A stretch of DNA of 64,000 nt, taken from positions 1 to 64,000 of the forward strand of contig JAJUGV010000006.1 in the NCBI GenBank assembly GCA_029265795.1, in the 5' to 3' direction. This DNA is from Alcaligenaceae bacterium. GTDB taxonomy: Bacteria; Pseudomonadota; Gammaproteobacteria; Burkholderiales; Burkholderiaceae_B. A program made the position numbers and the translations under genes. The notes under the pieces were generated by a model that had not been told where the DNA came from, searched no databases, and was given only the letters and a program-made list of their open reading frames with translations. Shown piece by piece: positions 58,420 to 60,853 of the stretch. Position 1 is the stretch's first letter, and each line of letters starts with the position of its first letter.

Positions 58420-58632
58420 TCTTGTGGACCTCTTTAGCGGTATTTATGAGGCGCCCGCAAGCGGATCGAGCAAATCGGCGCCAAAGAAAGAGAGTTGGCG
58501 GCATTGTAGCACCGGCTGTGATTCCGTCCGGGATAACCCCGGGCCCCATCCCCACCCCTTTAGATACAATTAGAATCATTTTAAAGGCGCTTGTCCGTGG
58601 CATCTCATAGAACAGCAGGAGGAATCCCGCCC

Positions 58633-58887
58633 ATGAAGCCCCTGACCGAACGTGAACTCACCTGCCTGCAATGGGTGGCAATCGGAAAAACCAGTTGGGA
58701 AACCGGCCGCATTCTGGGTCTGGCAGAACGCACCATCAATTTTCACATTCAAAATGCCTGTCGAAAATTAGGTGTACACAGCAGGCAGGCCGCGGTCACT
58801 ACCGCCATGCGAACGGGCCTGCTCAGCTTCGACGAAACCCAGCCCGATACCACTGCGCACACGCTTCCTCGTGTCAGCACACAGTGA
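58633..58887 (+). CDS. Solo LuxR-type HTH DNA-binding protein (84 aa)
   Basis: LTERELTCLQWVAIGKTSWETGRILGLAERTINFHIQNACRKLGVHSRQAAVTTAMRTGLL; AGGAGG RBS upstream of ATG 58633. Confidence 0.87.
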   Translation: MKPLTERELTCLQWVAIGKTSWETGRILGLAERTINFHIQNACRKLGVHSRQAAVTTAMRTGLLSFDETQPDTTAHTLPRVSTQ

Positions 58888-58986
58888 GTGGCGCGCGGTA
58901 ACGCTTCCTAAATTCGCACCCCGCGGCCTTGCGCGACACCGGTCAGGTAAAATCCCGGCTATTTGATACCCAATCTGAAGTCGCGC

Positions 58987-60549
58987 ATGAGCTCATCCCC
59001 CCCCCGTTCCGGACGGCTCCGTCAGGATCTACATCTTCTAGCCAGCATAAAGCGCGGCATCGAGAAGGAAGGCTTACGCGTCGACGCCGCTGGCAGACTG
59101 GCGCTCACGCCTCACCCTCAGTCGCTGGGTTCAGCGCTTACAAATTCTCGCATCACCACCGATTATTCTGAAGCGCTGCTGGAGCTCATTACCGGTACGC
59201 ACTCCAGCGTAGAATCGCTGCTGCAGGAACTCGAAGAAACGCACCGTTTTGTGGCACGTCAGCTTAAAGATGAGCTGATCTGGAATCAGTCTATGCCTCC
59301 AGAGCTGCCCGCCGAGGAAGACATACCCATCGGCTGGTACGGCACATCGAATTCGGGCATGCTTAAGCACGTATACCGGCGCGGTTTGGCGTACCGCTAC
59401 GGTAAGGCAATGCAATGCATAGCCGGCGTGCATTACAACGTATCGTTCCCCGACCGCCTGTGGGATCTCGTCGGCATTGAGGGCATTTCGCTGGAACACC
59501 AGCGCAGCAAAGGTTATCTCGCCCTCATTCGGAATTTCACGCGTTATTCCTGGCTATTAATGTACCTGTTCGGCGCTTCACCGGCCGTTTCGCGTTCGTT
59601 TTTGGCCGACAGGCCTCACAGCCTGCAGGAGTTCGACGCACACACACTGTATTTGCCCTGGGCCACCAGCCTGCGCATGAGCGACCTTGGCTATCAGAAC
59701 AAGGCTCAGTCCGACCTCCAGCTGTGCTACAACGACCTGGAAACGTTTCTGCAGCGCATGTATACCGCCGTCACGACGCCCTGGGAGGCCTACGAGCGTT
59801 TAGGCACCAAGCGTAATGGCGAGTGGATACAGCTCAACACTAACGTCTTGCAGATCGAGAACGAGTACTACTCCAGCATTCGTCCCAAGCGCACTACCCT
59901 GCGGGGCGAGCGGCCCGCCACCGCACTGGCCGAGCGCGGAGTGGAATACATCGAAGTCCGCTGCCTCGACATCGACCCATGGTCGCCGGTGGGCATACGT
60001 GCGGAAACCTGCCGCTTTCTGGACGCCTTTTTGCTGTTCTGTGCGGCGGAAGAAAGCCCCTTCTTCCCGGGTAACGGCCACTGCTCAGTCAGCCAGGATA
60101 ACTTCGCCACCGTGGTTCGAGAGGGTCGCAAGCCCGGCCTTGCACTCAAACGCGGCGATACGACTATTTCACTACGCGATTGGGGCGAAGAGCTCATCGC
60201 CGGTATTCGGCCTTACGCGGAAATGCTTGACGAAGCCTATGGCCACAAGCGCCATGTCATGGCGCTGGAACATCAGCTGCAAAAGGTCCACAACACAGAG
60301 CTGACACCGTCCGCCCGCGTGCTGCATACCCTGCGCGAAGGGAATACCGATCTGCATGCCTGTATGCTGCAGATAAGCAAGACACACCACGAAACGCTGC
60401 TGAGCGGGCCTCTCGACCCGGAACTACTGGAACGCTATATCCAGGAAGCTGCAGCGTCCATCGAAGAGCAGCGAGCACTGGAAGCCGCCGACACTGAAAG
60501 CTTTGATGAGTACGTAGCTCGTTTTCATGCAGCTCTCAGGGCTCCATGA
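58987..60549 (+). CDS. gshA: Glutamate-cysteine ligase
   Basis: IKRGIEKEGLRVDAAGRLALTPHPQSLGSALTNSRITTDYSEALLELITG...GKAMQCIAGVHYNVSFPD. Start 58963 or 58987. Confidence 0.94.
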   Translation: MSSSPPRSGRLRQDLHLLASIKRGIEKEGLRVDAAGRLALTPHPQSLGSALTNSRITTDYSEALLELITGTHSSVESLLQELEETHRFVARQLKDELIWNQSMPPELPAEEDIPIGWYGTSNSGMLKHVYRRGLAYRYGKAMQCIAGVHYNVSFPDRLWDLVGIEGISLEHQRSKGYLALIRNFTRYSWLLMYLFGASPAVSRSFLADRPHSLQEFDAHTLYLPWATSLRMSDLGYQNKAQSDLQLCYNDLETFLQRMYTAVTTPWEAYERLGTKRNGEWIQLNTNVLQIENEYYSSIRPKRTTLRGERPATALAERGVEYIEVRCLDIDPWSPVGIRAETCRFLDAFLLFCAAEESPFFPGNGHCSVSQDNFATVVREGRKPGLALKRGDTTISLRDWGEELIAGIRPYAEMLDEAYGHKRHVMALEHQLQKVHNTELTPSARVLHTLREGNTDLHACMLQISKTHHETLLSGPLDPELLERYIQEAAASIEEQRALEAADTESFDEYVARFHAALRAP

Positions 60550-60570
60550 GGGAAACTGCAGAGACACAGA

Positions 60571-60749
60571 ATGACAGACAACACCGCGAAAATGATGATT
60601 TACGATGCCAAGAAAGAAGCACCGGAATCGGCGTATTTGCTTTCGTGGTGATTGTTATCTGGTGGGTGATCGACGCGTTTCTGATCCCGGGCATGATACG
60701 CAATAAGAATCTATTGCTTGCTGCCGAACTTATAGCGGGCGGACACTAA
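60571..60749 (+). pseudogene. Probable TM2-domain protein remnant with internal frame-breaking deletion
   Basis: Frame 1 from ATG 60571 encodes MTDNTAKMMIYDAKKEAPESAYLLSW then stop (60649); the adjacent frame encodes a typical TM2-like C-terminus FVVIVIWWVIDAFLIPGMIRNKN. Confidence 0.6.
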
Positions 60750-60778: not shown

Positions 60779-60853
60779 TGGCGCGCCCGACAGGAATCGA
60801 ACCTGTATCGAGAGCTTCGGAGACTCTTATTCTATCCATTGAACTACGGGCGC
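60779..60853 (-). tRNA. tRNA-Arg (anticodon CCG), CCA encoded
   Basis: Reverse complement GCGCCCGTAGTTCAATGGATAGAATAAGAGTCTCCGAAGCTCTCGATACAGGTTCGATTCCTGTCGGGCGCGCCA folds as a cloverleaf. Confidence 0.95.

Follow-up and report, generated by a model that had tools for sequence, protein, structure and literature searches.

The window, that is, the whole stretch of DNA analyzed here, comprises 64,000 nucleotides from an Alcaligenaceae bacterium. In it the intact gene for glutamate-cysteine ligase, gshA, is followed by a short region in which a 67-aa open reading frame has been called, and then by an intact tRNA-Arg gene on the opposite strand (Table 1). Just upstream of gshA (58591-58887, plus strand), a 98-aa open reading frame has a LuxR-type (GerE) DNA-binding domain as its sole domain; it may represent either a stand-alone regulator or the remnant of a longer one.

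Two overlapping frames are present between gshA and the tRNA gene. Translation from the ATG at 60571 gives MTDNTAKMMIYDAKKEAPESAYLLSW and ends after 26 residues at a TGA (60649-60651), and the frame of the called open reading frame contains FVVIVIWWVIDAFLIPGMIRNKN and ends at a TAA (60747-60749). An earlier sequence-only reading of this DNA had reported the same two frames, with coordinates and translations that proved exact, and had interpreted them as the two ends of a TM2-domain gene, fused out of frame by an internal deletion near 60640-60650 that had removed a segment of the type G.HRFYLG.

Table 1. Features of the gshA to tRNA-Arg region, with positions given in the window.
Feature	Position	Strand	Basis or remark
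gshA, glutamate-cysteine ligase, intact upstream neighbour	58963..60549	+	Pfam Glu_cys_ligase, E 1.4e-158
67-aa ORF call	60546..60749	+	ATG overlaps gshA stop; absent from relatives
Putative TM2 pseudogene, 5' half	60571..60642	+	MTDNTAKMMIYDAKKEAPESAYLL; short TM2 profile positions 3-26; 16.7 bits, E 5.9e-4
Putative TM2 pseudogene, 3' half	60642..60746	+	FVVIVIWWVIDAFLIPGMIRNKNLLLAAELIAGGH; short TM2 profile positions 62-101, match ends at 101; 46.1 bits, E 4.3e-13
Inferred deletion junction	60640..60645	+	47 residues in 11 intact genes vs 17 nt in window; alignment to relatives
tRNA-Arg (anticodon CCG), intact	60779..60853	-	

The family membership of the two halves was assessed with a hidden Markov model (HMM) of short TM2 proteins, built from nine intact proteins, of which one is alphaproteobacterial and eight belong to other genera within the same bacterial family. 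The model was run against the six-frame translation of the whole window, 1,747 pieces in all. The 3' and 5' halves ranked first and second, respectively, and the next-best piece of the window scored 10.8 bits. When the sequences were shuffled, none of 2,000 shuffles reached the real score for either half. The remnant retains the N-terminal YDANKKSxGVAYLL segment and the C-terminal IW..DAFLIPGxIRNxNxLLA segment, and the GGHRFYxGK core is absent from it. The two halves lie on the same strand, collinear and adjoining, with the 3' half shifted by one frame relative to the 5' half, so that no single open frame runs across the whole gene; past the junction the 5' half continues out of frame as S-W-stop.

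A search of 269 genomes of the family with a query made of both halves showed both ends joined in one frame in intact genes of about 100-107 codons. The intact relatives carry YDANKKSVGVAYLLWFFLG.LGGHRFYxGKTGSAIA... and ...IWVIVDAFLIPGWIRNxNxLLAxxLS, and the pattern in the intact proteins to which the halves align reads YDANKKSxGVAYLLWFFLG.LGGHRFYxGKTGSA...IWVxIDAFLIPGWIRNxNxLLAxxLS. Short TM2 proteins (PF05154) of about 100-107 aa from other genera of the family (for example L083, L081, L080) and from Alphaproteobacteria (L074, L075) share with the remnant YDAxKK...AYLL at the N-terminus and IWWVIDAFLIPGxIRNxNxLLA at the C-terminus, whereas the copy in the window is frameshifted and lacks the middle including GGHRFYxGK.

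The size of the missing part could be estimated from the spacing of conserved positions. In all 11 intact genes, YLLW and the conserved tryptophan that follows it are separated by 47 residues, so that the distance from the YLL codons to the TGG is 144 nt in the intact genes as compared to 17 nt in the window. The difference of about 127 nt corresponds to 3n+1; since 127 is not divisible by three, the TM2 ends were fused out of frame, in line with the observed offset. The lost segment carries W-FFLG.GGHRFYxGK together with the greater part of the second hydrophobic stretch, and the junction falls at about 60642, within the predicted interval. The main proposal of the sequence-only reading was thereby borne out: the remnant combines an inactivating lesion with homology to intact genes, as expected of a pseudogene and as judged from alignment, HMM and gap-length count. 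Taken together, the feature is very probably a TM2 pseudogene with an out-of-frame internal deletion of about 127 nt.

The history of the locus would have started with a gene of about 105 codons for a two-helix TM2 membrane protein, beginning at the ATG at 60571. Deletion of about 127 nt from its middle would have joined the ends out of frame, and the 3' half would then have been reachable only via an unrelated upstream ATG in the other frame. We infer one deletion event as the simplest account. Note that the ancestral sequence and the breakpoints are estimates, as none of the close relatives compared was found to carry the intact gene at this position.

Three other explanations were weighed against a decayed TM2 gene. 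That the halves merely resemble TM2 ends by chance in intergenic DNA might seem to be favored by Pfam, which gave no TM2 match above cut-off for either half, for the 67-aa frame or for the joined reading, only sub-threshold noise. However, an intact 106-aa relative is matched by the Pfam TM2 model (50.5 bits) over residues 16-58 only, almost exactly the deleted part, and Pfam is therefore blind to the remnant. Given also the E-values of the two halves (4e-13 and 6e-4), the outcome of the shuffling and the collinear, adjacent arrangement on one strand, the probability of chance resemblance is negligible. It is highly improbable, too, that the deletion is an artefact of assembly or sequencing and that the TM2 gene of the organism is in fact intact at this position. 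The assembly is indeed fragmented (185 contigs, contamination 6.48), but short-read assembly errors do not typically remove about 127 nt so cleanly, the junction is far from the end of its contig (C34, 74,209 bases), and the assembly holds no other copy of this kind with which it could have collapsed. Apart from the remnant, the genome has a single TM2 gene (G000:C106), which is intact and encodes a long protein of about 155 aa; this protein matches Pfam TM2 and is common to all seven congeners examined. This long protein differs from the remnant in belonging to another subfamily (MLQR...LGAHRFYLGQ...LIDAIRYFFM), and it is not the source of the remnant.

The 67-aa frame could instead be a real and recent gene for a small one-helix membrane protein, with its translation coupled at the gshA stop. 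The frame is open throughout, its ATG overlaps the TGA of gshA as ATGA, and its hydrophobic stretch FAFVVIVIWWVIDAFLIPGMI could be membrane-spanning. On the other hand, its first 31 residues or so are merely the N-terminal TM2 codons read out of frame, joined to the TM2 C-terminal half, just as the sequence-only reading had it. Moreover, the fused frame was found in none of about 1,000 genomes (the 269 of the family plus samples of the order and the class), and the congeners are devoid of the remnant DNA altogether. We therefore regard a genuine gene as very unlikely; a translated one-helix peptide is possible, with no support for a function. Intact 67-aa frames in relatives and a lack of TM2 similarity in the halves had been named beforehand as findings that would speak against the deletion, and neither was seen.

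The surroundings of the remnant were compared among congeners. The order gshA, spacer, tRNA-Arg, cytochrome c is kept in four of them, with gshA to tRNA-Arg spacers of 79 (G003), 142 (G004), 72 (G005) and 278 nt (G007), none of which contains a TM2 gene. A fifth congener (G002) has a spacer of 985 nt that is filled by a PhzF-like gene, again without TM2. This PhzC/PhzF-family gene (L037, 2058-2960) indicates that the content of the spacer varies across the genus. No tRNA-Arg was present in the examined stretch downstream of gshA in G001, and the contig of G006 ends about 200 nt past gshA. The sequence-only reading had expected an intact TM2 gene between gshA and tRNA-Arg in relatives, and this expectation failed: it was found in no congener, and an intact orthologue at the same place was rejected, given the short or non-coding spacers in four congeners and the PhzF-like gene in G002. 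When the remnant DNA was searched for in 60 relatives, the only match was to the genome itself.

Matches to the short TM2 profile occurred in 15 of the 269 genomes and in 9 of the 43 genera of the family, and a phylum-wide search returned only three distant members. The G+C content of the remnant is 47%, as compared to 58% for the window. This low G+C, together with the patchy distribution in the family and the absence from congeners, argues for an earlier acquisition. From comparison of the sequences, the TM2 gene probably arrived at this place as a sporadic acquisition specific to the lineage, rather than being ancestral there, and decayed later; loss from all congeners would be less economical than gain by this lineage. 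A few phages and plasmids also encode short TM2 relatives, but none of these reaches 60% identity, and accordingly no donor was identified; a tblastn search of the joined halves against plasmids gave no match.

A second decayed copy of the same subfamily is found in the same bacterial family, in a genome of another genus (G228; L110, 1440-1700, minus strand, and L125; contig C96, 13501-13698). It is broken like the remnant, but its lesions differ: a TAG stands where YLLW would have its tryptophan codon, and the C-terminal end has been lost. As far as the two sequences tell, this copy was broken independently of that in the window.

The location next to tRNA-Arg, also pointed out in the sequence-only reading, is real. 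Intact short TM2 genes have a tRNA within a few kb at loci L114, L117, L118, L120, L121, L122 and L123, the tRNAs near such genes including Val in g4, Thr in g59 and Leu in one g2 genome. A tRNA was present in 7 of 15 short TM2 loci (about 6-10 kb), as compared to 4 of 20 control stretches (20 kb), a pattern that was noticed before being tested and is thus post hoc. With the orthologous-looking sites (g4 Val and g59 Thr) counted once, about 4 of 11 independent sites are tRNA-linked, the window included. The association between TM2 and tRNA genes is at most suggestive. It seems unlikely that short TM2 genes of this bacterial family behave like small mobile or insertion-hotspot cargo, with gain next to tRNA genes (for Val, Leu and Thr, and for Arg in the window) and subsequent decay both recurring. 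In the present case the tRNA is a neighbour only, and no finding here points to a causal role.

The decay of the TM2 gene in this lineage is ordinary gene decay of a patchily distributed gene for a small membrane protein. A literature search found nothing on TM2 pseudogenes in bacteria. For annotation, the 67-aa product should be replaced by a frameshifted TM2 pseudogene, and the case illustrates how a deletion that takes exactly the modelled domain hides a pseudogene from a profile library.
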